A DNA stretch of 64,000 nucleotides, from NCBI RefSeq assembly GCF_025486315.1, contig NZ_JAOOPY010000002.1:62001-126000 (forward strand), written 5' to 3'. The translations under genes and the position numbers were made by a program. Shown here one piece after another: positions 1,963 to 19,720 of the stretch. Below the pieces are notes generated by a model. That model was given only the letters and a program-made list of their open reading frames with translations, did no database searches and was not told the origin of the DNA. The DNA comes from Variovorax sp. N23 (GTDB taxonomy: Bacteria > Pseudomonadota > Gammaproteobacteria > Burkholderiales > Burkholderiaceae_C). How positions within the stretch are numbered: position 1 is the stretch's first letter; every line of letters begins with the position of its first letter.

Positions 1963-2481
1963 ATGGCGTCACTTCTTGCCAAACTGGGGCGGCTCTGGCG
2001 CCACCGCTCGGCCGACGAGGCCGCCGTGCGGCGCGTGCTGCCACCGGAGGTGCTCGCCCGACTGCAGGCCCGCGTGGCCGCCAGCGAACGTCGCCACACC
2101 GGCGAGATCCGCCTGTGCATCGAGGCCGGCCTGCCCGTGAGTTACCTGTGGCGCGGTGCGCCGGCGCGCGAACGGGCGATCATGCTGTTCGGCAAGCTGC
2201 GCGTCTGGGACACCGAGCAGAACAACGGCGTGCTGATCTACCTGCTGCTGGCCGAGCACGCGATCGAGATCGTGGCCGACCGCGGCATCGACCGCCACGT
2301 CGACACCCAGGCCTGGCGTGCGATGGCGCAGCGCATGGGCGGGGCCTTCCGCGAGGGCCGCTTCGAGGACGGGCTGACGCAGGCCCTGGAAGAGGTGTCG
2401 GCCCTGCAGATGGCGCATTTCCCGCGCGCCGAGGGCGAGCCCGACGTCAACGAACTGCCGGACGCGCCCGTCGTGATCTAG
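1963..2481 (+). CDS. Second TPM-domain protein
   Basis: This 172-residue protein starts two bases after the previous stop, so it is almost certainly in the same transcript. The central part (about residues 35-130) carries the TPM pattern: GEIRLCIEAGLP, then a WDTEQNNGVLIYLLLAEHAIEIV strand and GIDRHVDTQAW. Unlike its neighbour it has no signal peptide and no Gly-rich tail, which is typical of the short cytoplasmic-side TPM protein found in LemA clusters. Its stop codon overlaps the stop of the convergent cyclic-nucleotide-binding gene in the palindrome CTAG. Confidence 0.85.
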   Translation: MASLLAKLGRLWRHRSADEAAVRRVLPPEVLARLQARVAASERRHTGEIRLCIEAGLPVSYLWRGAPARERAIMLFGKLRVWDTEQNNGVLIYLLLAEHAIEIVADRGIDRHVDTQAWRAMAQRMGGAFREGRFEDGLTQALEEVSALQMAHFPRAEGEPDVNELPDAPVVI

Positions 2482-3155
2482 CGGCCGCCGAGCGGCCCGA
2501 AGTTCGAGGGCGCCAGGTCGGTGTCGAAGCCCGAGTCCAGCGCGGGCATGCCGGACGGCATCAGCGCGGCGTTGACGCTGGTCGGCGCGCTGTCGTGCTC
2601 GCTCAGGAGCCGGCGGTTGACGGCATGCGTGGCATCGAGCTCTCGCTGCATGGCCTTGGCCACCTGCGACAGCGTGCGCAGCCGGCGGTTGTTCTCGCGC
2701 ACCCGTCCGCCCAGCAGACTGGCGACGGCCAGCAGCAGGCGCGCCGCGATGGCCGGCTGCGTCTCGACCAGCCCGCGCAGCGCCTCGCGCGAGAGGATGG
2801 CCAGCTTCAGGTCGGAGAGCGCCGTGCAGGTGGCCGAACGCGGCGCCCCGTCGATCAGCCCCATCTCGCCGATCAGGCTGCCCGCGCCGATGAGCGAGAT
2901 CACCATGTTCTCGCCGGCTGCGCCGGTGGCATTCTCGGCGCGTACCTGGCCTTCGATCAGCAGCGCCATGAATTCGTTGCCGTCGGTCTGGCCTTCCTCG
3001 ATGAAGACGGTGCCGGCCGCGACGAAGGCGGGCTGCATGGCGTCGATCACCAGGCCCGCGTCATGGAAGTCGAGTTCGGCGACCGGCGAGGCGCGCATCA
3101 GCATCAGCACTGCCTGGTCGCGCAGGCTGGCGGCGGGGGGGCGCAGGTCGCTCAT
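2478..3155 (-). CDS. Cyclic-nucleotide-binding domain protein, downstream of pilU
   Basis: The product is 225 residues. A cNMP-binding fold occupies about residues 30-150, with the recognisable run VFIEEGQTDGNEFMALLIEGQVR and the phosphate-binding-cassette-like GSLIGEMGLIDGAPRSATC. The C-terminal part is helical and shows no helix-turn-helix that I can see, so this is not a classical CRP/FNR activator. It follows pilU by about 20 bases on the same strand, which suggests that it senses a nucleotide signal connected with pilus retraction or surface behaviour. That link is inference from position. Confidence 0.85.
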   Translation of the reverse strand: MSDLRPPAASLRDQAVLMLMRASPVAELDFHDAGLVIDAMQPAFVAAGTVFIEEGQTDGNEFMALLIEGQVRAENATGAAGENMVISLIGAGSLIGEMGLIDGAPRSATCTALSDLKLAILSREALRGLVETQPAIAARLLLAVASLLGGRVRENNRRLRTLSQVAKAMQRELDATHAVNRRLLSEHDSAPTSVNAALMPSGMPALDSGFDTDLAPSNFGPLGGR

Positions 3156-3176
3156 CGGCCGATACCCACGCGGCGC

Positions 3177-4313
3177 TCAGACGATGGCGAAGTGCTCGGT
3201 GCCGGCCGACAGGTCGGTCGAGCGGGCGCGCTGGCTGTTCAGCTTGATCTGCAGGCGCAGGTCGTTGGCCGAGTCGGCGTTGCGGATCGCATCCTCGAAG
3301 CTGATCGCGTTGCTCTCGAACAGGTCGAACAGCGCCTGGTCGAAGGTCTGCATGCCGAGGTTGCGGCTCTTCTTCATGATCTCCTTGATCTCGCCGACCT
3401 CGCCCTTGAAGATCATGTCGGAGATCAGCGGCGTGTTCAGCAGCACCTCGACCGCGGCAATGCGGCCCAGCCCGTCCTGCGTGGGAATCAGCCGTTGCGA
3501 GACCAGCGCGCGCAGGTTGAGCGACAGGTCCATCAGCAGCTGCGTGCGACGCTCTTCCGGGAAGAAGTTGATGATGCGGTCGAGCGCCTGGTTGGCGCTG
3601 TTGGCATGCAGCGTGGCCATGCACAGGTGGCCGGTCTCGGCGAAGGCCACCGCGTGCTCCATCGTCTCGCGGTCGCGGATCTCGCCCATCAGGATCACGT
3701 CGGGCGCCTGGCGCAGCGTGTTCTTCAGCGCGGCCTCCCAGCTGTCGGTGTCGATGCCCACTTCGCGCTGCGTCACCACGCAGTTCTTGTGCGGATGCAC
3801 GAACTCGATCGGGTCTTCGACCGTCACGATGTGGCCGAAGGAGTTCTCGTTGCGCCAGTCGACCATCGCCGCCAGCGTGGTCGACTTGCCCGAGCCGGTG
3901 GCGCCCACCAGGATCGTCAGGCCGCGCTTGGTCATCGACACGTCCTTGAGCACCTGCGGCATGCCCAGCCCGTCGATGGTCGGCAGCACGGCGGGGATGG
4001 TCCGCAGCACCATGCCGATCTTGCCCTGCTGCACGAAGGCGTTGACGCGGAAGCGGCCGATGCCGGTGGGCGAGATCGCGAAGTTGCATTCCTTCGTGCG
4101 CTCGAATTCCGCCACCTGCCGGTCGTTCATGATCGACCGCGTCAGCGCCACCGTGTGCTGCATGCCCAGCGACTGCCCCGACACCTTGGTGATCTTGCCG
4201 TCGACCTTGATCGCCGGCGGGAAGTCGGCAGTGATGAACAGGTCACTGCCGTTGCGGCTCACCATGAGCTTGAGCAGATCGTTGATGAACTGACTGGCCT
4301 GATCGCGTTCCAT
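3177..4313 (-). CDS. pilU: Type IV pilus retraction ATPase PilU
   Basis: This is a 378-residue GspE/PilT-family hexameric ATPase. The Walker A motif GATGSGKST lies at residues 137-145, the Asp box near VTVEDPIEF, and the Walker B region at VILMGEIRD around residue 208. It lacks the AIRNLIREGK signature of PilT and has PLISDMIFKGE in its place, which together with its length marks it as PilU, the PilT-dependent retraction partner. It lies downstream of pilT on the same strand with a spacer of 164 bases that holds a palindromic repeat. It acts at the inner-membrane base of the pilus machine. Confidence 0.95.
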   Translation of the reverse strand: MERDQASQFINDLLKLMVSRNGSDLFITADFPPAIKVDGKITKVSGQSLGMQHTVALTRSIMNDRQVAEFERTKECNFAISPTGIGRFRVNAFVQQGKIGMVLRTIPAVLPTIDGLGMPQVLKDVSMTKRGLTILVGATGSGKSTTLAAMVDWRNENSFGHIVTVEDPIEFVHPHKNCVVTQREVGIDTDSWEAALKNTLRQAPDVILMGEIRDRETMEHAVAFAETGHLCMATLHANSANQALDRIINFFPEERRTQLLMDLSLNLRALVSQRLIPTQDGLGRIAAVEVLLNTPLISDMIFKGEVGEIKEIMKKSRNLGMQTFDQALFDLFESNAISFEDAIRNADSANDLRLQIKLNSQRARSTDLSAGTEHFAIV

Positions 4314-4377
4314 GAAGTACCTGCCTGTCTGAGCTGAAAGGGTTGGCGCCTGCCAAGGACGCGGAAGGTTTTATGCC

Positions 4378-4472
4378 AGGAACGCCGCGGAACGGGCTTC
4401 GCCCGGCCGCTGGCGTTGCCCCCGGTAGGGGGAGGGCGAAGCGACACGCAGTGCGCGCAGCCTGGGGGCGAG
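4378..4472. repeat. Dispersed palindromic repeat, copy A
   Basis: The pilT-pilU spacer carries a GC-rich element built from several hairpins: GGGCTTCGCCC, CCCCCggtaGGGGG, and an outer pair AACGCC/GGCGTT. It ends with the block GCGACACGCAGTGCG. The same architecture and the same terminal block recur at 13498-13592. It resembles the intergenic palindromic repeats known from Comamonadaceae genomes. Lying inside a two-gene unit, it may affect mRNA stability or termination between pilT and pilU. Confidence 0.8.
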
Positions 4473-4477
4473 CATAG

Positions 4478-5521
4478 CTAGCCTGGGAAGTTTTCGGGGA
4501 TCTTGGCCTTGCCGCGCGCTTCTGCGGCACTGATCACGCCGCGGCGCACCAGGTCGGTCAGGTTCTGGTCCAGCGTCTGCATGCCCTGGCCGCTGCCGGT
4601 CTGGATCGACGAATACATCTGCGCCACCTTGCCCTCGCGGATCAGGTTGCGGATGGCCGAGGTGCCCAGCATGATCTCGTGCGCCGCCACGCGGCCCTGG
4701 CCGTCCTTGGTCTTGCACAGTGTCTGCGAAATCACGGCCTGCAGCGACTCCGACAACATCGCGCGGATCATCTCCTTTTCCTCGCCGGGGAACACGTCGA
4801 TGATCCGGTCGATGGTCTTGGCGGCCGACGAGGTGTGCAGCGTGCCGAACACCAGGTGGCCGGTCTCGGCGGCGGTCATCGCCAGCCGGATGGTTTCCAG
4901 GTCGCGCATTTCGCCCACCAGGATCGCGTCCGGGTCTTCGCGCAGGGCCGAGCGCAGCGCGTTGGCGAAGCTCAGCGTCATCGGGCCGACCTCGCGCTGG
5001 TTGATCAGGCACTTCTTGGACTCGTGCACGAACTCGATCGGGTCTTCCACCGTGAGGATGTGGCCGTACTCGGTCTCGTTGAGGTAGTTCACCATCGCCG
5101 CCAGCGTGGTCGACTTGCCCGAGCCCGTGGGGCCGGTCACCAGCACCAGGCCGCGCGGCTTGAGCGCCAGGTCGCCGAAGATCTTGGGCGCGTTGAGCTG
5201 CTCGAGCGTGAGGATCTTCGACGGAATCGTCCGGAACACCGCCGCCGCGCCGCGCGCCTGGTTGAAGGCGTTCACGCGGAAGCGCGCCAGGCCGTCGATC
5301 TCGAAGGAGAAGTCGACCTCCAGGAATTCTTCGTAGTGCTTGCGGTGCGTGTCGCTCATGATGTCGTACACCATGGCGTGCACCGCCTTGTGGTCGAGCG
5401 CGTCGACGTTGATGCGCCGCACGTCGCCGTGCACCCGGATCATGGGCGGCAGCCCCGACGAGAGGTGCAGGTCGGAGGCTTTGTTCTTGACGCTGAATGC
5501 CAGCAGTTGGGTGATGTCCAC
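4478..5521 (-). CDS. pilT: Type IV pilus retraction ATPase PilT
   Basis: The product is 347 residues with a GTG start at 5521. The frame stays open further upstream, but PilT proteins begin at MDITQLLAF. Walker A GPTGSGKST is at residues 130-138, the Asp box at TVEDPIEFVH, Walker B at AILVGEMRD, and the PilT signature AIRNLIREGK near residue 290. PilT powers pilus disassembly and twitching motility from the inner-membrane side. Its start is only 33 bases from that of the divergent YggS gene, so both promoters must overlap or lie within the coding starts. Confidence 0.96.
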   Translation of the reverse strand: MDITQLLAFSVKNKASDLHLSSGLPPMIRVHGDVRRINVDALDHKAVHAMVYDIMSDTHRKHYEEFLEVDFSFEIDGLARFRVNAFNQARGAAAVFRTIPSKILTLEQLNAPKIFGDLALKPRGLVLVTGPTGSGKSTTLAAMVNYLNETEYGHILTVEDPIEFVHESKKCLINQREVGPMTLSFANALRSALREDPDAILVGEMRDLETIRLAMTAAETGHLVFGTLHTSSAAKTIDRIIDVFPGEEKEMIRAMLSESLQAVISQTLCKTKDGQGRVAAHEIMLGTSAIRNLIREGKVAQMYSSIQTGSGQGMQTLDQNLTDLVRRGVISAAEARGKAKIPENFPG

Positions 5522-5554
5522 GAAGACCCTCGGTGACGTTTTGATACGCTTTGG

Positions 5555-6262
5555 ATGATTATGACGATGATTGCCGCCAACCTCCACCAAGTTCGATCGC
5601 GGATCGTGACCGCCTGCGCGGCGGCCGACCGCGACCCGGCGAGCGTGCACCTGCTCGCCGTCTCCAAAACCTTCCCGGCCGAGGCGGTGCGCGAGGCGCT
5701 GGCCGCGGGCCAGACTGCCTTCGGCGAGAACTACGTGCAGGAAGGCGTGGCCAAGATCGAGGCCCTGGCCGACGTGCGCGCGCAACTCGTGTGGCACTGC
5801 ATCGGCCCTCTGCAGAGCAACAAGACCCGGGTGGTGGCCGAGCATTTCGACTGGGTGCACAGCATCGACCGGCTGAAGATCGCCGAGCGCCTGTCGGAAC
5901 AGCGGCCGGCGGGGTTGCCGGCGCTGCAGGTCTGCCTGCAGGTCAACGTCGACGGCGGCGCCAACAAGTCGGGCGTGTCGGCCGACGAGGCGCTGGCGCT
6001 GGCGCAGGCCGTGGCGTTGTTGCCACGGTTGCGGCTGCGCGGGCTGATGGCGATCCCGGAACCTGCCGCCGATTTCGACGCCCAGCGGGCGCTGTTCCTG
6101 CGCGCGCGTGCCGTGTACGACCGCATCCGCGACAGCGGCATCGCGCTCGACACGCTCTCGCTCGGCATGAGCGCCGATCTCGAAGCGGCCATCGCGGCCG
6201 GCAGCACGATGGTGCGGGTGGGCACCGCGATCTTCGGCGGGCGGCCAAAGCCGGCCCTGTGA
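5555..6262 (+). CDS. yggS: YggS/PROSC family pyridoxal-phosphate homeostasis protein
   Basis: This 235-residue TIM-barrel protein has the PLP lysine in the motif LLAVSKTF (K38 from the first ATG), the GENYVQE motif and WHCIGPLQSNK. The phosphate-binding end SLGMSADLEAAI is also present. The family binds PLP and maintains B6 vitamer balance, and it affects proline and amino-acid metabolism; no enzyme activity is established. Three in-frame ATGs (5555, 5561, 5567) lie at the 5' end, so the exact start is uncertain by four residues. Divergence from pilT is a widely conserved arrangement. Confidence 0.94.
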   Translation: MIMTMIAANLHQVRSRIVTACAAADRDPASVHLLAVSKTFPAEAVREALAAGQTAFGENYVQEGVAKIEALADVRAQLVWHCIGPLQSNKTRVVAEHFDWVHSIDRLKIAERLSEQRPAGLPALQVCLQVNVDGGANKSGVSADEALALAQAVALLPRLRLRGLMAIPEPAADFDAQRALFLRARAVYDRIRDSGIALDTLSLGMSADLEAAIAAGSTMVRVGTAIFGGRPKPAL

Positions 6263-6272
6263 CGCCGGTCTT

Positions 6273-6752
6273 TCAGTTCCCCAGCGGCAATCGCGCGCTG
6301 CTTTTCACCTCCTCCATCACCGCATAGGTCCGCGTCTCGCGCACGCCGGGCAGCTGCCACAGCACCGTGCCGGCGAATTCGCGATACGCCGCCATGTCGG
6401 CCATGCGGGTCTTGAGCAGGTAGTCGAAGCCGCCGGCCACCATGTGGCATTCCATGATCTCGTCGCGCACCTGCACCGCCGCCTTGAAGGCGTCGAACAC
6501 ATTCGGCGTCGTGCGGTCGAGCAGCACCTCGACGAAGACGGTGAAGCCTCGTCCCAGCTTGTGCGGGTCGAGCCGCGCCTCGTAGCCCTGGATGTAGCCC
6601 TCGCGCGTGAGGCGCTGCACGCGCGCCAGCACGGCGGTGGGCGACAGCGCCACCGTCTCGGCCAGCTTGAGGTTCGAGAGGCGGCCATCCTCCTGAAGAA
6701 TCCTCAGGATTTTCATGTCGATGCGGTCGACTCCGGGTAATTCATTGCTCAT
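6273..6752 (-). CDS. Lrp/AsnC family regulator, probable putA activator
   Basis: This 159-residue protein has an N-terminal helix-turn-helix (about residues 8-65, motif DGRLSNLKLAETVALSPTAV) and a C-terminal ligand-binding RAM domain (about 72-152). It is divergent from putA, with 48 bases between the two ATG starts. In several alpha- and betaproteobacteria an Lrp-type regulator, PutR, activates putA in response to proline. This gene very likely has that role, especially because the PutA here lacks its own DNA-binding domain. The regulatory link is inferred from position. Confidence 0.9.
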   Translation of the reverse strand: MSNELPGVDRIDMKILRILQEDGRLSNLKLAETVALSPTAVLARVQRLTREGYIQGYEARLDPHKLGRGFTVFVEVLLDRTTPNVFDAFKAAVQVRDEIMECHMVAGGFDYLLKTRMADMAAYREFAGTVLWQLPGVRETRTYAVMEEVKSSARLPLGN

Positions 6753-6800
6753 TGGCTTCAGATTATCCGGCTGACGTGGTGAATTTTGGTGAATAACTCG

Positions 6801-9797
6801 ATGACGCCAGCGGCACGATCACAGCCATCCCTCCTGGAGTTTTTCATGCGCCTGCCGATCCCGTACCGCCCCGAACCCGACGTCGTCGCCCACCGTCTCG
6901 CCGCCCTTGAAGGCGCACTCGAATGGCACCAGGCCGCGCTGCATGCGGCACCCTGGGTCCAGGCCGTGCGGAACAACCCGCCGCCGTTCTGGGCCATGGA
7001 AAGCCTGCTGCGCGAGTACCCGATCTCCAGTGCCGAAGGCCTGGCGCTGATGCGGCTGGCCGAGGCCCTGCTGCGCGTGCCCGACGCCGAGACGGCGATC
7101 GCGCTGACCGCCGACCAGCTCGGCCGGGCCGACTTCGACGGCGCGGCCGACTCCACGCTGGCGCGGCTGTCGTCCTCGGCCATCGCGCTGTCCAAGCGCT
7201 TCCTGCCCGAGAGCGACCATCCGCCCGGCCTGCTGGCGCGCCTGGGCTCGCGCACCGTCGTCGCCGCCACGCTGCGCGCGGTGCAACTGCTGGGCCGCCA
7301 GTTCGTGCTCGGCCAGACCATCCGCGAAGCCATGGGCGAGGCGCGCAGCGCGCAGAAGAAGCAGCCGGCGCTGTGCTTCAGCTACGACATGCTGGGCGAG
7401 GGCGCCCGCACCGAGGCCGACGCGCAGCGCTACCAGCAGAGCTACGCCGACGCGATCCGCGCCATCGGCACCCAGTCGGACGCCGCACGCGCGCCCGAGC
7501 ACAACGACGGCATCTCGATCAAGCTCAGCGCCCTGCATCCGCGCTACGAAGACGCGCAGCGCGAGCGCGTGATGGACGAGCTGGTGCCGCGCGTGTGGCA
7601 GCTCTGCGCGCTGGCGGCCGACGCCAACCTGAACCTCACGATCGATGCGGAGGAGGTCGACCGGCTCGAACTCTCGCTGGACGTGTTCGAAGCGCTGGCG
7701 GCACGGATCGCGGCCGAGAAGCCGCAATGGCGCGGCTTCGGCCTGGCGATGCAGGCTTACCAGACGCGTGCGCTCGAACTCATCGGCGAGGTCGTCGCCA
7801 TCGCTCGCCGGCACGGGCTGCGCCTGATGTGCCGCCTGGTCAAGGGCGCCTATTGGGACGCCGAGATCAAGCGCGCGCAGGAGCTCGGCCTGCCGCACTA
7901 CCCCGTGTTCACCCACAAGCACCACAGCGACGTGAGCTACCTCGCCTGCGCGCGCGCCATGCTCGCCGCGCCCGACGCGATCTACCCGCAGTTCGCCACG
8001 CACAACGCCGGCACCATCGCGGCCATCCTGCAAATGGCGGGCGCGCAAGGTTTCGAGTTGCAGCGCCTGCACGGCATGGGCGAGGGCGTGTACCGCGAGG
8101 TCATGAAGGCGACGACGGCGCATGTGCGCGTCTATGCGCCGGTGGGCCAGCACAAGGACCTGCTCGCGTACCTCGTGCGCCGCTTGCTGGAAAACGGCGC
8201 CAACTCCTCCTTCGTGAACCAGCTCGGCGACGACGGCGTACCGGTCGACCGGTTGCTGGCGTCGCCGCTGCACGCGTCGCCGATGTCGTCGCTGCCCCTG
8301 CCGCCGCTGCTCTACGGGCCGGCACCCGCACGGCGCAACAGCGAAGGTCTCGACCTCGCCGTGGCCACGATGCGCGCGCCCTTGCTGGCGGCGCTGGCGA
8401 GCACGCCGGTGCCCGTGGTGCCGCTGGCCGATGCGGCGCGCGCCGAGCCCGCCGTGGCCGAGGCCCTGCGCGCGCTGCCGGCGTGGCGCGGTACGCCGGT
8501 TGCCCAGCGCGCGGCCCGGCTGCGCCACGCGGCCGATGCCTTGCAGGCGGACCTCCCGCGCTTCTGCGCGCTGCTGGTGAAGGAGGCCTTCAAGACCTGG
8601 GGCGACGCCATCGCCGAGGTGCGCGAGGCCGTCGACTTCCTGCGCTACTACGCCGACGAGGCCGAGCGGATCATGCAACCCGTGGCGCTCCCGGGACCGA
8701 CGGGTGAATCGAACGAGCTGCGCCTCGTCGCGCGCGGCCCGTGGGTCTGCATCAGCCCCTGGAATTTCCCGCTGGCGATCTTCGTGGGCCAGGTGGCGGC
8801 CGCGCTCGCGACCGGCAACACGGTGCTGGCCAAGCCCGCGGAGCAGACGCCCGGCGTCGCGCTCGAAGCGGTGAAGCTGCTGCACGCGGCCGGCGTGCCC
8901 GCCGATGCGCTGCAGTTGCTGCACGGCCCGGGCGAGACGGTGGGCGCCGCGCTGGTGGGCGCGCCCGGCGTGGCCGGCGTCGTCTTCACCGGCTCGACGC
9001 AGGTGGCGAAGATCATCCACCGCGCGCTGGCCGCGAAGGACGGCCCGATCGTCCCGCTCATCGCCGAGACCGGCGGCATCAACGCGATGGTGGTCGACTC
9101 GAGCGCGCTGCCCGAGCAGGTGATCGACGCGGTGGTCCAGAGCGCCTTCCGATCGGCCGGCCAGCGCTGCTCGGCGCTGCGCCTGCTGTGCGTGCACGAG
9201 GGCATTGCCGAGGGCGTGATCGAGATGCTCGGCGGCGCCGTGGCCGAACTCGCCAGCGGCGACCCGGCGCTGCTGGCCACCGACGTCGGCCCGCTGATCG
9301 ACGCCGAGGCCTTCGGCAACGTGGCACGCGCGGTCGACGCGCTGGCGGCGCACGGCCGTCCGATCGCCGCGTCACCGGTCGCCGCGCCGATGGCAAATTT
9401 CATCGCGCCCCAAGCCTTCGAGGTGCCCTCCATCGAGCACGTGCGCAGCGAGATCTTCGGCCCGGTGCTGCAGATCGTGCGCTGGTCGGGCGATCCGGCC
9501 GCGGTGGTCGAGCGCATCAATGCGTTGGGCTACGGGCTCACCTTCGGCATCCAGACGCGCATCGACTCGCGCGCCGCCGCGATGGCCGCCCAGGCCCACA
9601 TCGGCAACGTCTACGTCAACCGCAACACCATCGGTGCGGTGGTCGGCGTGCAGCCCTTCGGCGGCGAAGGCCTGAGCGGCACCGGACCCAAGGCGGGCGG
9701 GCCGCACTATCTCTATCGTTTCTGCGCCGAGCAGACCGTCACGATCAACACCGCGGCGGCCGGCGGCAACGCGGCGCTGCTTGCCGCAATGGCATAA
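6801..9797 (+). CDS. putA: Bifunctional proline dehydrogenase / L-glutamate-gamma-semialdehyde dehydrogenase (type A PutA)
   Basis: With the ATG at 6801 the product is 998 residues. The N-terminal half is the FAD proline dehydrogenase barrel (about 120-460), with [14 protein letters not shown] and [12 protein letters not shown]. The C-terminal half is the NAD-dependent P5C dehydrogenase (about 540-985), with the Rossmann region [10 protein letters not shown], the glutamate in AETGGINAM, and the catalytic Cys in SAGQRCSAL. There is no N-terminal ribbon-helix-helix domain and no extra C-terminal domain, so this is the short type A form that cannot repress itself. It oxidises proline to glutamate with substrate channelling. 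Alternative starts at TTG 6786 or ATG 6846 cannot be excluded. Confidence 0.95.
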
Positions 9798-9880
9798 GGT
9801 CCTGCATCCGCCGCATGGGGAGTGGCGCGCGGGCCGGCGCGGGGCTATCGTCCGCCCAGTCCATCCACCGAGGGTCTTCC

Positions 9881-11155
9881 ATGAGCGAGAAACTGTCCTT
9901 TGTCCATCCCACGCCCAACAGTCCGTGGGGCACCTACCTGCAGCAGGTCGACCGCGTGGTGCCGTACCTGGGCGACCTGGCCAAGTGGGCCGAGACGCTC
10001 AAGCGGCCCAAGCGCGCGCTGATCGTCGACGTGCCCATCGAGATGGACGACGGCCGCATCGCGCACTACGAGGGCTACCGCGTGCAGCACAACATGAGCC
10101 GCGGCCCGGGCAAGGGCGGCGTGCGCTTCCACCCCGACGTGACGCTGGAAGAAGTGATGGCGCTGTCGGCCTGGATGACGGTCAAGACCGCCGCCGTGAA
10201 CCTGCCCTACGGCGGGGCCAAGGGCGGCATCCGCGTCGACCCGAAGAAGCTGTCGCTGAAGGAGCTGGAGAAGGTCACGCGCCGCTACACCAGCGAGATC
10301 GGCATCATCATCGGCCCGCACACCGACATCCCGGCGCCCGACGTGAACACCAACGGCCAGATCATGGCCTGGATGATGGACACCTATTCGATGAACACCG
10401 GCGGCACGGCCACCGGCGTGGTCACCGGCAAGCCGCTGCACCTGGGCGGCTCGCTCGGCCGGGTGAAGGCCACCGGCCGGGGCGTGTTCGTCACCGGCCG
10501 CGAGGCGGCGCGCCGCCTGGGCCTGGACCTGCGCGGCGCCCGCGTCGCGGTGCAGGGCTTCGGCAACGTGGGCTCGGTCGCGGCCGAACTCTTCGCCGAG
10601 GCGGGCGCGAAGATCGTCGCGGTGCAGGACCACACCGGCACGGTCGTCAATGAGAACGGGCTCGACCTCGAGAAGCTCATCCCGATCTCGCGCACGCCCG
10701 CCGGCGCGGCCGGCTTCGAGGGCGGCGACAAGGTGCCCAACGAGCAGTTCTGGGAGGTCGCCTGCGACATCCTGATTCCCGCCGCGCTCGAAGGCCAGAT
10801 CACGGCCGAGCGCGCCAAGAAGACCAAGGCCAAGCTGGTGCTCGAAGGCGCCAACGGCCCGACCGTGCCGGAGGCCGACGACATCCTGGCCGAGCGCGGC
10901 GTGCTGGTGGTGCCCGACGTGATCTGCAACGCCGGCGGCGTGACGGTGTCGTACTTCGAATGGGTGCAGGACTTCTCGTCCTTCTTCTGGGACGAGGACG
11001 AGATCAACGTGCGGCTCGACCGCATCATGATGAACGCGCTCAACCAGATCTGGGACACGGCCGACAAGCACAAGATCACGCTGCGCACCGCCACCTACGC
11101 GGTCGCCTGCGAGCGCATCCTGATGGCACGGCAGGAACGCGGCCTGTATCCCTGA
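9881..11155 (+). CDS. gdhA: Glutamate dehydrogenase (Glu/Leu/Phe/Val family)
   Basis: The product is 424 residues, the length of hexameric NAD(P)-dependent GDH. The substrate-lysine region [12 protein letters not shown], the catalytic PYGGAKGGI, the [13 protein letters not shown] motif with its catalytic Asp, and the Rossmann motif [12 protein letters not shown] are all present. It deaminates glutamate to 2-oxoglutarate, or the reverse. It lies 83 bases downstream of putA on the same strand, so proline can be carried through glutamate into the TCA cycle by neighbouring genes. The ATG at 9881 gives the canonical N-terminus. Cofactor preference is not judged. Confidence 0.94.
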
Positions 11156-14432: not shown

Positions 14433-14807
14433 ATGAAAAAACTCACGCTCTCCCTCGCGACCTGTGCTGCCGTGCTGCTGCCGCTCGGTGCCATGACGCT
14501 GCCGACCGCCGCCCAGGCGCAGGCCTCCATCGTCATCCGGACCGCGCCGCCGCCGCCACGCGCCGAACGCGTGCCGCCGCCGCGCCGTGGCTATGTCTGG
14601 GCCCCAGGTCACTACGAAGCGCGTGGCGGTCGCTATGTGTGGGTGCGCGGTGAGTACGTTCGGGCGCGCCCGGGCTACGCCTACCGCGCGCCGCAATGGC
14701 AGGATCGCGGTGGCCGCTGGGAATACAACCGGGGCGGCTGGGACCGCGACGGCGACGGCGTGCCGAACCGGGCCGACCGCCGTCCGAACAACCCGCACCG
14801 CAACTGA
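14433..14807 (+). CDS. Exported WXXGXW-repeat protein
   Basis: The product is 124 residues. It has a signal peptide cleaved near AQAQA (about residue 31), then a Pro/Arg-rich segment with VPPPRRGYVWAPGHYE and YVWVRGEYV repeats of the YXWXXG(H/E)(Y/W) type found in BcpO-like exported proteins. It ends in a short basic Asn/Arg-rich tail. A good ribosome-binding site (AGGAGC) stands about ten bases before the ATG at 14433. Such proteins are thought to sit in the periplasm or envelope; their role is unknown. It is divergent from tetR. Confidence 0.85.
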   Translation: MKKLTLSLATCAAVLLPLGAMTLPTAAQAQASIVIRTAPPPPRAERVPPPRRGYVWAPGHYEARGGRYVWVRGEYVRARPGYAYRAPQWQDRGGRWEYNRGGWDRDGDGVPNRADRRPNNPHRN

Positions 14808-14814
14808 CAGCGGG

Positions 14815-15540
14815 TCAGAACAGTCGGAAGATCAGCGGCAGCAGCAGGGCCGCGAGCACCACCTGCAGGCCGAGCGCCAGGCCGGCATAGGCCCCGGCAT
14901 CGGCGTTCACCTGCAGCGCGCGGGCTGCGCCGATGCCATGCGCGGCGGTGCCCAGCGCGAAGCCGCGCGACCGCCAGCCGGCCGGCGTGGTCCGAATGCG
15001 CAGCGCGTCGAACAGGTACTTGCCCGACAGCGCGCCGATCAAGCCGGTGAGCACCGCGAAGACCGCCGACAGCGCCGGGATGCCGCCGATCTTCTCGGCG
15101 ATGCCCATGGCCACCGGCGCGGTGACCGACTTGGGTGCCAGCGACATCACCACGTCGTGCGGCAGCCCGACCGCCCACCCCAAGGCCACCGCGGAGCCGC
15201 CCGCCGCGGCACCGCCGAGCAGGGCCGCCAGCAGCACGCGGCCGAAGCGTGCCCGCAGTTCGACCCGTCGCTGCCACAGCGGCCAGCCCAGCGCGACGAC
15301 CGCCGGTCCCAGCAGGAAGTGGATGAACTGCGCGCCAGCGAAGTAGGTCGGATAATCGACCTTGGTGAGCGTGAGGCCACCCGCGATCGTCACGATCGAC
15401 CACAGCACCGGGTTGGCCCAGGGCGCATGGCCCAGGCGCACATACGCCGCCTGCGCGAGCAGGTACACCACCAGCGTTGCCGTCAGCCCGAAGAGGGGCG
15501 AGGCGGAAAGGTAGACCCAGAGCTGGACGAAGTGCGGCAT
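14815..15540 (-). CDS. lrgB: LrgB family membrane protein
   Basis: This 241-residue polytopic membrane protein has the LrgB/CidB signature LAPKSVTAPVAMGIAEKIGG around residue 145 and the later GTAAHGIGAARAL. It follows lrgA by four bases. LrgAB proteins were first described as holin-like modulators of autolysis. Bacterial members have also been shown to import pyruvate, and the plant LrgA-LrgB fusion PLGG1 exchanges glycolate and glycerate. Since glcD is directly upstream in the same unit, transport of glycolate, lactate or a related 2-hydroxy acid is a plausible role here. Confidence 0.92.
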   Translation of the reverse strand: MPHFVQLWVYLSASPLFGLTATLVVYLLAQAAYVRLGHAPWANPVLWSIVTIAGGLTLTKVDYPTYFAGAQFIHFLLGPAVVALGWPLWQRRVELRARFGRVLLAALLGGAAAGGSAVALGWAVGLPHDVVMSLAPKSVTAPVAMGIAEKIGGIPALSAVFAVLTGLIGALSGKYLFDALRIRTTPAGWRSRGFALGTAAHGIGAARALQVNADAGAYAGLALGLQVVLAALLLPLIFRLF

Positions 15541-15544
15541 CGCG

Positions 15545-15889
15545 TCAGGGCGCCTTTCGGTCCGGCCAGTAGAGCACCAGCGCCGTGACGGCCAGGCCGA
15601 TCCAGGTCGACAGCGCGATCACCACCAGCATGCGGCCGCCGTACTGCGACAGCAGCGCCAGGTGCGTCATCACGCCGACGCCCACCGGGATGAAGAGCAG
15701 CGAGAGGTGCGACAGCAGGAAGTTCGCGCATTCGGCCACCGGCTCGCGCACGAGGGCGAAGCGAAGCGCCGGCACCAGCAGGATCAGGCCCAGCACCGGC
15801 CCGGGCAACGGCAGCGAGAAGCCGCGCGAGAGCACTTCGCCGATCGACTGGAACACCAGCAACCACGCCAGACCGCGCAAGCCCTTCAT
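15545..15889 (-). CDS. lrgA: LrgA/CidA family membrane protein
   Basis: This 114-residue protein has four predicted hydrophobic segments and the CidA/LrgA pattern LPLPGPVLGLILL near residue 27, followed by FIPVGVGVMTH. It starts 11 bases after the glcD stop and ends four bases before lrgB, so glcD-lrgA-lrgB reads as one operon. The N-terminus at 15889 is the only reasonable start given the family length. It probably pairs with LrgB in one transport complex. Confidence 0.92.
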   Translation of the reverse strand: MKGLRGLAWLLVFQSIGEVLSRGFSLPLPGPVLGLILLVPALRFALVREPVAECANFLLSHLSLLFIPVGVGVMTHLALLSQYGGRMLVVIALSTWIGLAVTALVLYWPDRKAP

Positions 15890-15900
15890 CGGCGCGGGCG

Positions 15901-17403
15901 CTAGAAGCGCGGCAGGTCCGGGTGCGGCAGGCGGCCGCCGCGCACCACCTGCTTGCCGTACTCGGCGCAGCGCTGCAGGGTCGGGATCACCTTGCCGGGG
16001 TTGAGCATGCCTTCGGGGTCGAAGGCGCGCTTGACGCCGAACATCTGCTCGTTCTCGGCCGCGGTGAACTGCACGCACATGCTGTTGAGCTTCTCGACGC
16101 CCACGCCGTGCTCGCCGGACACCGTGCCGCCCATGGCGACACTGGTCTCGAGGATGTCGGCGCCGAACAGCTCGCAGCGGTGCAGTTCGTCGGGGTCGTT
16201 GGCATCGAACAGCACCAGCGGGTGCAGGTTGCCGTCGCCTGCGTGGAACACGTTGCAGCAGCGCAGGTTGTACTTCTTCTCCATCTCCTGTATGGCGAGC
16301 AGGATGTCGGCCAGGCGCTTGCGCGGGATGGTGGAGTCCAGGCACATGTAGTCGGGGCTGATGCGGCCGGAGGCGGGGAAGGCGTTCTTGCGGCCGCTCC
16401 AGAACTTCAGACGCTCGTCCTCGTTCTCGCTGCAGGCGATGGCCGTGGCGCCGCACCGGCGCAGCACGTCGGTCATGCGGCCGATCTCTTCCTCGACCTC
16501 CTCGATCGTGCCGTCGGATTCGCACAGCAGGATGGCGGCGGCGTCGAGGTCGTAGCCGGCTTTCACGAAGTCCTCGACGGCGGCGGTCATGGGCTTGTCC
16601 ATCATCTCGAGCCCGGCCGGGATGATGCCGGCCGCGATCACCGCCGCTACGGCATCGCCGGCTTTGCGCACATCGTCGAAGCTGGCCATGATGCAGCGCG
16701 CCAGCTGCGGCTTGGGCACCAGCTTGACGGTGACCTCGGTGGTCACGGCCAGCATGCCTTCGCTCCCGATGACCAGCGCGAGCAGGTCGAGTCCCGCGCC
16801 GTCGAGCGCCTCGCTGCCGAACTCGATCGGCTCGCCCTCGGCGGTGAAGCCGCGCACGCGCAGCACGTTGTGCAGCGTCAGGCCGTACTTCAGGCAATGC
16901 ACGCCGCCCGAGTTCTCGGCCACGTTGCCGCCGATGGTGCAGGCGATCTGGCTCGACGGATCGGGCGCGTAGTAGAGGTTGAAGGGGGCGGCCGCCTCGC
17001 TGATGGCGAGGTTGCGCACGCCGCACTGCACGACCGCGGTGCGGGCGTAGGGGTCGATCTTCAGGATGCGGTTGAACTTGGCCAGCGACAGCGTCACGCC
17101 CATCGCATGCGGCATCGCGCCGCCCGACAGGCCGGTGCCCGCGCCGCGCGCCACCACCGGCACGCCGAGCCCATGGCAGGTCTTAAGCACGGCCGCCACC
17201 TGCGCCTCGGTCTCGGGCAGGGCCACCACCAGCGGCCGTTGCCGGTAGGCCGTGAGGCCGTCGCATTCGTAGGGCGTGGTGTCTTCGGCGTGCCAGATCA
17301 GCGCATGGGCCGGCAGGTGGGCCTGCAGGGCGCGGACGATCTGCGACTGGCGCTCGCTGCGCTGCATCAGGTCGTGCTGGCTGGGCGTGGTGGGCGCATT
17401 CAT
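15901..17403 (-). CDS. glcD: FAD-linked glycolate/lactate oxidase subunit (GlcD-like)
   Basis: The product is 500 residues. An N-terminal FAD-binding PCMH domain occupies about 55-235 (VVARGAGTGLSGGAMP and CTIGGNVAENSGG), followed by the FAD-oxidase C-terminal domain with NVFHAGDGNLHP and GTVSGEHGVG. These motifs match the GlcD subunit of glycolate dehydrogenase and related D-lactate dehydrogenases. No glcE or glcF is adjacent, so it either works alone, uses partners encoded elsewhere, or has another 2-hydroxy-acid substrate. It lies 43 bases downstream of purU and just upstream of lrgAB. Confidence 0.92.
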   Translation of the reverse strand: MNAPTTPSQHDLMQRSERQSQIVRALQAHLPAHALIWHAEDTTPYECDGLTAYRQRPLVVALPETEAQVAAVLKTCHGLGVPVVARGAGTGLSGGAMPHAMGVTLSLAKFNRILKIDPYARTAVVQCGVRNLAISEAAAPFNLYYAPDPSSQIACTIGGNVAENSGGVHCLKYGLTLHNVLRVRGFTAEGEPIEFGSEALDGAGLDLLALVIGSEGMLAVTTEVTVKLVPKPQLARCIMASFDDVRKAGDAVAAVIAAGIIPAGLEMMDKPMTAAVEDFVKAGYDLDAAAILLCESDGTIEEVEEEIGRMTDVLRRCGATAIACSENEDERLKFWSGRKNAFPASGRISPDYMCLDSTIPRKRLADILLAIQEMEKKYNLRCCNVFHAGDGNLHPLVLFDANDPDELHRCELFGADILETSVAMGGTVSGEHGVGVEKLNSMCVQFTAAENEQMFGVKRAFDPEGMLNPGKVIPTLQRCAEYGKQVVRGGRLPHPDLPRF

Positions 17404-17446
17404 GGCGTCACTCTATTCCGAATCCAGGCCGAAGGGCGGCCGGCCG

Positions 17447-18292
17447 CTACTTGAAGATGACGGTCTTGTGGCCGTTCATGAGCACGCGGCGTTCGCTGTG
17501 CCACTTGACGGCACGTGCCAGCACCTGGCTCTCGGTGTCGCGGCCGCGGGCCGTCAGGTCTTCGACCGTGTCGGTGTGGTCGGCGCGGGCCACGTCCTGC
17601 TCGATGATCGGGCCTTCGTCGAGGTCGGCCGTCACGTAGTGCGCCGTGGCGCCGATCAGCTTCACGCCGCGGTCGTGCGCCTGGTAGTAGGGCTTGGCGC
17701 CCTTGAAGCTGGGCAGGAACGAGTGGTGGATGTTGATGGCGCGGCCGGCCAGCCTGGCGCACAGGTCGTTGCTCAGCACCTGCATGTAGCGCGCCAGCAC
17801 CACCAGTTCGGAGCCCTCGGCCTCGATGATCTCCAGCTGCTTCGCTTCGGCCTGCGGCTTGGTCGCCGCCGTCACCGGGATGTGGTGGAAGGGCACGTTG
17901 TAACTGGCGGCCAGCTGGTAGAAGTCGCGGTGGTTCGAGACGATGGCGCGCACGTCGATGGCCAGCAGGCCGCTCTTCCAGCGGAACAGCAGGTCGTTGA
18001 GGCAGTGGCCTTCCTTGCTGACCAGGATGACGGTCTTCACCGGCTGACTGGCGTCGTGCAGCTTCCAGTCCATGCCGAAGCCCTGGGCCAGTTCGCCCAG
18101 TTCCCTGGCGAGGGCATCGCGGTCGTGGGCGGTGCAGGCGAAGCGCACCCGCATGAAGAACAGGCCGGTGCCGTGGTCGTTGTACTGCGCCGCTTCTTCG
18201 ATGTTGCCGCCGCGCTCCAGCAGGAAGCCCGAGACGGCGTGGACGATGCCGGTGCGGTCCGGGCAGGAAAGGGTCAGGATGTACGCGCTCAT
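17447..18292 (-). CDS. purU: Formyltetrahydrofolate deformylase
   Basis: This 281-residue protein has an N-terminal ACT domain (about 1-85, opening with LTLSCPDRTGIVHAV) and a C-terminal formyltransferase-fold hydrolase domain (about 90-280). The latter shows NIHHSFLPSFKGAKPY and the catalytic Asp region TADLDEGPIIEQD. It hydrolyses 10-formyl-THF to THF and formate, balancing one-carbon pools when glycine and methionine vary. It is the first gene of the minus-strand purU-glcD-lrgA-lrgB run. A 93-base spacer separates its start from that of the divergent aminotransferase. Confidence 0.95.
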   Translation of the reverse strand: MSAYILTLSCPDRTGIVHAVSGFLLERGGNIEEAAQYNDHGTGLFFMRVRFACTAHDRDALARELGELAQGFGMDWKLHDASQPVKTVILVSKEGHCLNDLLFRWKSGLLAIDVRAIVSNHRDFYQLAASYNVPFHHIPVTAATKPQAEAKQLEIIEAEGSELVVLARYMQVLSNDLCARLAGRAINIHHSFLPSFKGAKPYYQAHDRGVKLIGATAHYVTADLDEGPIIEQDVARADHTDTVEDLTARGRDTESQVLARAVKWHSERRVLMNGHKTVIFK

Positions 18293-18385
18293 AAGGGCGC
18301 AGATTGTCGCAGCCCTGTGGTGGTGCCGTCGAAGTGCCAGAATCGCCCTTCCTTTCTTCGTGTCCGTTCAGCAGAGGAGCGACCC

Positions 18386-19720
18386 ATGGCCATCCCCGAC
18401 TTCAACATGGACAACCAGTGGTTGCCCTTCACCCCCAACCGCGCCTTCCGCAAGGACCCGCGGGTGTTCACCGCCGCCGACGGCATGGTGTTCACCACGC
18501 ACGACGGCCGGAAGGTCGTCGATGGCATCTCGTCGCTGTGGTGCGTGGGTGCGGGCCACAACCGAAAGCCCATCAACGAGGCGATCAAGACGCAGCTCGA
18601 CACGCTCGACTACGCGACCGCCTTCCAGGTCAGCAACGACAAGGCCTTCAAGGCCGCCGAGATGATCGCGGCCATGGCGCCGGGCGACCTGAACAAGGTG
18701 CTGTTCTGCAACTCCGGCTCTGAAGCGGCGGACACCTCGCTGAAAGTGGCGCTGGCCTACCACCGCGCCCGCGGCGAGGGCCATCGCAACGTGTTCATCG
18801 GCCGCGAGAAGGGCTACCACGGCGTGGGTTTCGGCGGCATGTCGGTGGGTGGTATTCCGGGCAACCGCAAGACCTTTGGCACGGCCTTCCTGCCGCGCGT
18901 GGACCACATGCGCTTCATCCACGACCCGGTGAACCATGCCTACATCCACAACCAGGAGCCGGTGTGGGCCGACGACCCATTGCTGGAGCTGGAGCAGCGC
19001 ATCCTGCCGCTGCACGACCCGAGCAACGTGGCGGCCATCATCGTCGAGCCGATCGCGGGTTCGGCCGGCTGGTACGTGCCGCCGAAGGGCTACCTGAAGC
19101 GGCTGCGCGAGATCTGCGACAAGCACGGCATCCTGCTGATCTTCGACGAGGTCATCACCGGCTTCGGCCGCCTGGGCACGAACTTCGGCGCCGACTACTA
19201 CGGCGTGGTGCCGGACATGCTGAACTTCGCCAAGGCGGTGACCAACGGCGTGATCCCGATGGGCGGCGTGATCTGCCGCGACAAGCTGTACGACGCGATG
19301 ATGGCCACCGACGCACCCGAGCATGTCGTCGAGTTCTTCCACGGCTACACCTACTCGGGCCACCCGGTGGCGGCGGCCGCGGCCATCGCCACGCTCGAGC
19401 TGTTCCAGAAGGAGCAGCTCTTCTCGCGCGCCGGCGAGATGGGCCCGGTGCTGGGCGATGCCTTCCACAGCGTGTTCAAGGGCCTGCCCAACGTGATCGG
19501 CATCCGCAGCCTGGGCCTGGCCGCGGCGGTGGAGCTGGCGCCGATGGCCGGCGCGCCCGGCAAGCGGGCCTACGACATCTTCGTGGACTGCTTCCACAAG
19601 GGCGCGCTGGTGCGCCCGGCCGGCGACGTGATCGTGATCGCGCCGCCGTACATCGTGGAGAAGTCGCACATCGACACGCTGGTCAACACGCTGGCGGATT
19701 CGATCAAGAAGGCCGCTTAA
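18386..19720 (+). CDS. Omega-amino acid (beta-alanine) : pyruvate aminotransferase
   Basis: This 444-residue class III aminotransferase has SGSEAADTSLKVA near residue 115, EPIAGSAGWYVPPKGYL, the cofactor Asp in LIFDEVITGFGRLG, and the PLP lysine in NFAKAVTNGV. The N-terminal FNMDNQWLPFTPNRAF is characteristic of the beta-alanine/omega-amino acid group that uses pyruvate as acceptor. An AGGAG site lies eight bases before the ATG at 18386. The stop overlaps the convergent lipoprotein stop in TTAA. The exact amine donor cannot be read from sequence. Confidence 0.92.
   Translation: MAIPDFNMDNQWLPFTPNRAFRKDPRVFTAADGMVFTTHDGRKVVDGISSLWCVGAGHNRKPINEAIKTQLDTLDYATAFQVSNDKAFKAAEMIAAMAPGDLNKVLFCNSGSEAADTSLKVALAYHRARGEGHRNVFIGREKGYHGVGFGGMSVGGIPGNRKTFGTAFLPRVDHMRFIHDPVNHAYIHNQEPVWADDPLLELEQRILPLHDPSNVAAIIVEPIAGSAGWYVPPKGYLKRLREICDKHGILLIFDEVITGFGRLGTNFGADYYGVVPDMLNFAKAVTNGVIPMGGVICRDKLYDAMMATDAPEHVVEFFHGYTYSGHPVAAAAAIATLELFQKEQLFSRAGEMGPVLGDAFHSVFKGLPNVIGIRSLGLAAAVELAPMAGAPGKRAYDIFVDCFHKGALVRPAGDVIVIAPPYIVEKSHIDTLVNTLADSIKKAA

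Follow-up and report, generated by a model that had tools for sequence, protein, structure and literature searches.

The genes purU-glcD-lrgA-lrgB lie contiguously on the minus strand of a 64 000-nucleotide stretch of the Variovorax sp. N23 genome (contig NZ_JAOOPY010000002.1, positions 62,001 to 126,000; hereafter the window, in whose numbering the positions of these genes are given). We consider it likely, with a probability of roughly 0.7, that LrgA and LrgB form a two-subunit glycolate carrier which does the job of an LldP/GlcA-type permease and has taken its place beside glcD; the carrier probably also takes lactate, glycerate or similar short hydroxy acids. We favour a glycolate permease because lrgAB is linked to the glycolate oxidase (glc) genes in several layouts, has glycerate-pathway neighbours in other lineages, alternates with lldP among near relatives, and in one genome accompanies a broken lldP. 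Algae release glycolate as a major carbon compound, and glcD serves as a marker gene for glycolate-eating bacteria. If the reading is correct, a family usually annotated as lysis factors can be given a concrete metabolic function in a large group of bacteria, and simple bacterial growth and uptake experiments could test where the plant photorespiratory transporter came from. In the literature searched, which mostly did not take in subscription papers, we found no account of LrgAB in a glycolate-oxidase operon.

The four genes are separated by gaps of 43, 11 and 4 bases, exactly those given for the co-directional set in the original prediction. The proposed core membrane subunit of the permease is encoded by lrgB (14815..15540; 241 residues; PF04172, E 2.1e-68), and a putative small partner subunit by lrgA, 4 bases before it (15545..15889; 114 residues; PF03788, E 1.3e-25). 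The product of glcD (15901..17403; 500 residues; PF01565 and PF02913) is assigned below to the flavin adenine dinucleotide (FAD) subunit of the glycolate oxidase GlcDEF. That of purU (17447..18292; 281 residues) is a formyltetrahydrofolate deformylase (TIGR00655, 342.5 bits against an NCBIfam cut-off of 285.95) whose part in the system is uncertain. The Pfam matches above the gathering score were ACT and Formyl_trans_N in PurU, FAD_binding_4 and FAD-oxidase_C in GlcD, LrgA, and LrgB. With their PF03788 and PF04172 domains and adjacent genes, LrgA and LrgB belong to the family of that name, and the window lrgB was the sole PF04172 match in a profile search of the genome. The NCBIfam equivalogs for LrgB (TIGR00659, NF007983, NF003291) and LrgA (NF003155) all scored under their curated cut-offs, so that the pair fell outside the CidB/LrgB lysis-modulator class.

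Linkage of lrgAB to the glycolate oxidase genes

The purU-glcD-lrgAB linkage is real, conserved and functionally telling. A near-relative set was made of the 80 best LrgB matches in named genomes, 71 of which hold at least 2.5 kb of upstream sequence; glcD (>70% identity) precedes lrgAB in 56 of the 71. A family sample of 150 genomes was drawn without regard to linkage and overlaps partly with the near-relative set (e.g. G384, G307). At the thresholds used it contains LrgB in 74 genomes and GlcD and GlcF in 142 each, and lrgAB adjoins glcD, glcE or glcF in 38 of the 74, in four layouts. The original prediction, which was to be given up if relatives lacked the linkage, survives in both surveys. 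Of the places whose LrgB is at least 60% identical to that of the window, 33 of 48 have glcD or glcF within 6 kb, as do 6 of the 34 others. These 82 places exclude two fragments of genes already counted (G318, G320), and one of the genomes concerned (G448, glcF 5.5 kb off) lies outside the 38. As a separate observation, the LrgB of the window's lineage is in two pieces, perhaps decaying, in the two genomes with the excluded fragments (G318:C1:1002074-1002795, G320:C29:19319-20030).

These counts bear on the historic annotation, preserved in the NCBIfam names, under which LrgAB would be a holin/antiholin autolysis pair and the glcD neighbourhood a matter of shared ancestry or chance. CidA and LrgA of Staphylococcus aureus are reported to be functional holins (PMC8805020). 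However, in genomes of ~4 Mb chance alone would put about 0.5 of the 82 LrgB places at 6 kb or less from glcD or glcF, and 39 were observed, although the genomes are kin and therefore not independent trials. Four glc layouts within a single family and another one in two further families, together with the carrier-like LrgB model described below, also argue against a holin, and we regard this explanation as very improbable. Genomic context lends good support to the earlier proposal, in which LrgAB is no lysis factor but a transporter of glycolate type coupled to its oxidase; the substrate itself is inferred from the same context.

The position of lrgAB varies: it may follow glcD, separate glcE from glcF, follow glcF or close the whole set. 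The layouts include purU-glcD-lrgAB and purU-lysR-glcD-lrgAB. We also found glcD-glcE-lrgA-lrgB-glcF (L328-L331), glcE-lrgAB-glcF (L332, with glcD elsewhere beside lysR and purU, L347) and glcE-glcF-lrgAB with a more divergent LrgB (L169, L333-L336); lrgA was matched weakly in L331 and L336. Two other Burkholderiales families have glcD-glcE-glcF-lrgAB (L165 and L180, of one genus, and more loosely L142), and in G762 glcF lies 0.5 kb before lrgB. Whatever the history of LrgB, several physical rearrangements in which the link persisted or was re-formed are needed to explain these layouts. In a tree of LrgB built by a quick method (182 of the 184 rows passed on length, and 24 of the 80 named loci took part), the glc-linked proteins fall in three places, and a careful 65-row tree agrees but does not reject a single clade. 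Repeated recruitment was considered and is not proven: by the approximately unbiased (AU) test, p was 0.087 for a single clade of the three lineages (A+B+C) and 0.188 for A+B.

A phylum sample of 398 genomes was compared by eye, for glcF against lrgB only. The two genes lie within 6 kb of each other in four genomes, all Burkholderiales (G049, G158, G264, G762). Among the matches listed, none of the 42 genomes outside the order that hold both has them within 6 kb; G506, G751 and some second copies had no listed LrgB position. Plasmid-borne LrgAB (6 of 119 records) had no glc gene named among its annotated neighbours, the annotation being incomplete. Outside the order, three genomes of a single genus have a glcF interrupted by one stop codon (G591, G625, G526).

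The identity of glcD had to be shown by other means than its model scores, since the best models stayed under their curated NCBIfam cut-offs (NF008408, 730.5 against 897; TIGR00387, 495.4 against 567.9). The window glcD is the genome's top match to the glcD model (495.8 bits, next 352.3; of the 13 match rows, some are pieces of one frame and one is glcE). The genome's own GlcE and GlcF score 488.4 against 284 and 689 against 333 bits, and their genes lie together 155-158 kb into contig C45, with no glcD adjoining. A YoaK-like frame, named by eye, lies between them (L098 4558-7776, C45).

Relatives connect the two loci. In the 15 of 71 near-relative loci where glcD is absent beside lrgAB, the genome has a glcD orthologue elsewhere that is 80-92% identical, and in 14 of the 15 it stands directly before glcE (89-92% identical to the window glcD in 13, 80% in one); glcF is also within the short flanks in five. 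One further locus (L045), where the end of glcD adjoins lrgA at a contig end, is not among the 15. Because the orthologue precedes glcE in 14 of 15 relatives, we assign the window glcD to the D subunit of the multi-subunit oxidase GlcDEF. The glycolate-oxidase genes are therefore split in this species, with glcD beside lrgAB, glcE and glcF at C45 and the LldP permease at contig C9. The same orthologues rule out a stand-alone lactate or D-2-hydroxyacid oxidase. The 'glycolate/lactate oxidase' first proposed for this gene thus holds as a glycolate oxidase, though as GlcD of GlcDEF, with glcE and glcF elsewhere, and not as an enzyme on its own.

Alternation with lldP and the transported substrate

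The E. coli glycolate permease, reportedly of the LldP/GlcA family, is said to be linked to the glc operon. In near relatives, lldP stands directly before glcD in 11 of the 15 genomes whose glcD is away from lrgAB and, to the extent of the flanks covered, in none of the 80 LrgB loci; this contrast is strong, yet it is drawn among close kin. In the family sample, 12 of 142 genomes have lldP no more than 2 kb from glcD. Ten of these loci are without lrgAB and read lldP-glcD-glcE-glcF, nine of them with lysR before lldP; one of the ten is in a congener of the window's species (G431, L350). In G264, the lldP before glcD is broken into pieces in different frames with internal stops (L348 1541-3244, G264:C1), and this genome has lrgAB between glcE and glcF. 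An intact lldP and lrgAB share one glc run in G326 (L330). Upstream of glcD, lldP-glcDEF and lrgAB alike we repeatedly found a GcvA-like LysR gene (L022 5679-6578 and related loci), which is likely to be a glycolate regulator in this family.

Other neighbourhoods suggest a wider substrate range. In two genomes of another family (L137 and L143), lrgAB follows genes for tartronate-semialdehyde reductase, a 2-hydroxyacid dehydrogenase and glycerate kinase. In L143 the models for the first and third scored over a cut-off and that for the dehydrogenase under its cut-offs; L137 was assigned through its 73-92% identity to L143. A tartronate-semialdehyde reductase gene (over cut-off) also comes after lrgB in L255. 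The L137 and L143 runs point to glycerate transport by LrgAB in that other family. Both runs (L137, ~6100-10500, minus strand; L143, ~2200-6700, plus strand) further contain part of a TRAP permease and an amidase-like frame, noted by eye.

The AlphaFold model of LrgB (mean predicted local distance difference test score 81.8) had its best structural match in CitS (Z 11.9 over 151 residues at 3.0 Å); the top eight rows were all CitS, and the matched entries are titled as elevator-like. CitS belongs to the 2-hydroxycarboxylate carriers. On this model the core of LrgB would be carrier-like and resemble CitS, a suggestive likeness. A sequence search of the PDB gave no convincing match (best E 0.07 for LrgA and 0.71 for LrgB). 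LrgB has been placed in the CPA/AT superfamily (PMC8396727).

A number of observations weigh against LrgAB as the glycolate permease. At the level of the order, LrgB is present in 127 of 300 genomes, and 140 LrgB places were read among the matches listed, with flanks of ~6 kb wherever the contig was long enough and with the window's own and nine others left out. At 135 of these there is no glc gene within ~6 kb (some are cut by contig ends), while five have glc genes. In the family sample, 76 of 150 genomes lack LrgB at E 1e-20 though 142 have GlcD, and four (G392, G435, G352, G365) have LrgB without GlcD and GlcF at the thresholds used. A single clade of all glc-linked LrgB proteins is not rejected by the AU values given above, and we found no residue signature common to the three lineages. 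The order glcD-glcE-lrgAB-glcF in G264 is an inference across two contig ends: the end part of glcE, lrgA, lrgB and glcF lie at one end of a single contig and glcD at the other, and because the glcD-glcE junction spans these ends, ~268 GlcE residues (~0.8 kb of glcE) and the last 18 of GlcD are absent from the assembly.

Further contrary points concern LldP and the fold. LldP is encoded in the window's own genome too, and across the 150 family genomes LrgB and LldP co-occur above expectation (37 with both; odds ratio 2.8, p 0.004), which rules out a strict either-or alternation at genome level. Nor do the two avoid each other significantly next to glcD in the family sample (both in 2 of 142 GlcD genomes, p 0.33; p 0.15 without the broken lldP). 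Among nine glc loci (L359-L367) with neither lldP within 2 kb nor an adjoining lrgAB, one has lldP 4.7 kb off and eight have neither, so other glycolate routes must exist. In G375, a distant FAD/iron-sulphur oxidase pair (25% and 24% identical to GlcD and GlcF) is followed on one strand by lldP, ~0.5 kb before lrgA, and by lrgB (L338 2097-8225, G375:C30), an arrangement that hints at another 2-hydroxyacid. Finally, the Z score of the CitS match does not reach the level (~13) below which the tool advises caution for helical proteins, and with Foldseek alone the LrgB model had no match at E 0.001; for both reasons the fold match is suggestive only.

Part of this evidence would also suit a broad lactate/pyruvate carrier like PftAB, whose company with glcD would reflect the action of GlcDEF on D-lactate, glycolate not being the main substrate. 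GlcDEF is active on D-lactate, the permease family that alternates with lrgAB beside glcD is one for lactate as well as glycolate, and in G375 both lldP and lrgAB follow the distant oxidase pair. Characterised bacterial LrgAB proteins carry pyruvate, including the relatives in Bacillus subtilis and S. aureus (PMC5626966, PMC8805020; see also PMC12632267). In the linked layouts, where no search was aimed at L-lactate or pyruvate genes, the partners are nevertheless glcD, glcE and glcF themselves, and the glycerate-pathway neighbours in L137, L143 and L255 also count against a lactate/pyruvate carrier. We judge it unlikely, while taking it seriously.

Direction can be considered in the same way. 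LrgAB could be a relief valve through which glycolate, glyoxylate or another acid leaves the cell on overload of the pathway. In E. coli, YohJK brings down the level of 3-hydroxypropionate inside the cell (PMC7642389), transport by PftAB follows the pyruvate gradient (PMC5626966), and LrgB and LldP are often found together, the present genome included. However, the alternation with an uptake permease family beside glcD and the broken lldP in G264 point to uptake, and a relief valve seems to us a poor prospect. A glycolate permease working mainly in uptake therefore remains our preferred reading.

purU and the photorespiratory analogy

The most ambitious form of the original idea is that purU-glcD-lrgAB is a dedicated glycolate/one-carbon module, a full mirror of photorespiration in which PurU is required. 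Plant 10-formyltetrahydrofolate deformylases are reportedly essential for photorespiration, a result attributed to Collakova 2008. In the near-relative loci with at least 6.5 kb upstream, purU is present in 58 of 63 and the GcvA-like LysR gene (217.7 bits, under its cut-off of 288) in 19 of 63; in the window, purU ends only 43 bases before glcD. Against this, only 18 of the 45 near-relative loci holding both genes have purU at 120 bases or less from glcD, and purU was not seen in the glcD-glcE-lrgAB-glcF, glcEF-lrgAB and glcDEF-lrgAB loci examined. It also occurs near lrgAB without glcD (13 of 63 loci, and L246 and L343) and beside glcD without lrgAB (L347, L366), which fits plain synteny. The position of purU is quite possibly no more than that, and its teamwork with glc-lrgAB is plausible but unproven. 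The proposed one-carbon link has adjacency here and the presence of purU in most relatives in its favour, but is specific to this lineage, adjacency being confined to a subclade.

Plant glycolate oxidase is a flavin mononucleotide enzyme of a family other than GlcDEF, so the oxidase step is analogous and not homologous. The LrgB family averages 0.32 copies per genome where the Calvin cycle is present and 0.48 elsewhere (PMC7895386), a difference that counts against any general link with photorespiration. The analogy to photorespiration is therefore weaker than the transporter reading. A full mirror that requires PurU is, in our estimation, improbable.

Upstream of purU, a short divergent intergenic region (18293..18385) is, from the gene coordinates, the likely site of the operon promoter; no sigma-70 consensus match was present in 14500-18700, and a promoter/terminator scan gave nothing over chance. 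Beyond it, on the plus strand, lies a gene for an AptA-like class-III omega-aminotransferase (18386..19720; NF052567, 616 bits against a cut-off of 500), a neighbour outside the system that is likewise divergent from purU in many relatives. A different, aminotransferase-like protein is encoded near glcD in several relatives (L060 591-1763); it matched no Pfam family at E 0.001 and gave weak PhnW/BhcA-type NCBIfam matches.

Proposed mechanism and comparison with known systems

In the mechanism we propose, LrgAB would let glycolate across the inner membrane, presumably by elevator-type transport. GlcDEF, with GlcD from this operon and GlcE and GlcF from the other locus, would oxidise it to glyoxylate, pass the electrons on and thereby keep an inward gradient. 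PurU may drain 10-formyltetrahydrofolate when glycine derived from glyoxylate loads the one-carbon pool.

All three subunits encoded by the E. coli glcDEF operon, GlcD, GlcE and GlcF, are present in the Variovorax genome too; unlike the E. coli operon, their genes and lldP are divided among three loci. The GlcA/LldP permeases occupy the same place beside glcD in relatives and would have the same task, but are of another protein family (PF02652), so that LrgAB would be a non-homologous replacement. With PftAB (YsbAB) of B. subtilis and LrgAB of Streptococcus mutans and S. aureus, all pyruvate carriers, the window pair has in common the LrgA plus LrgB composition and, as proposed here, a small monocarboxylate substrate and facilitated transport, which is that of PftAB. 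Pyruvate induces PftAB, and LytST controls it (PMC5626966), whereas the window genes neighbour those for glycolate oxidase, with a GcvA-like LysR gene in many relatives.

PLGG1 of plants carries glycolate and glycerate, as told in PMC8805020. It is a plastid LrgA-LrgB fusion of the same family (PF04172); the proposed substrate here is likewise glycolate, and glycerate-pathway genes are neighbours in L137 and L143. A more tentative suggestion, which we would hesitate to press, is that many Burkholderiales have in LrgAB their native permease for glycolate and, in some lineages, glycerate, that it entered glycolate-oxidase operons more than once and there replaced the unrelated LldP/GlcA, and that glycolate transport by PLGG1 continues an old bacterial trade and is not a plastid invention. 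In contrast to PLGG1, the window LrgAB consists of two separate proteins and is tied genetically to GlcDEF, the likeness between them being one of family.

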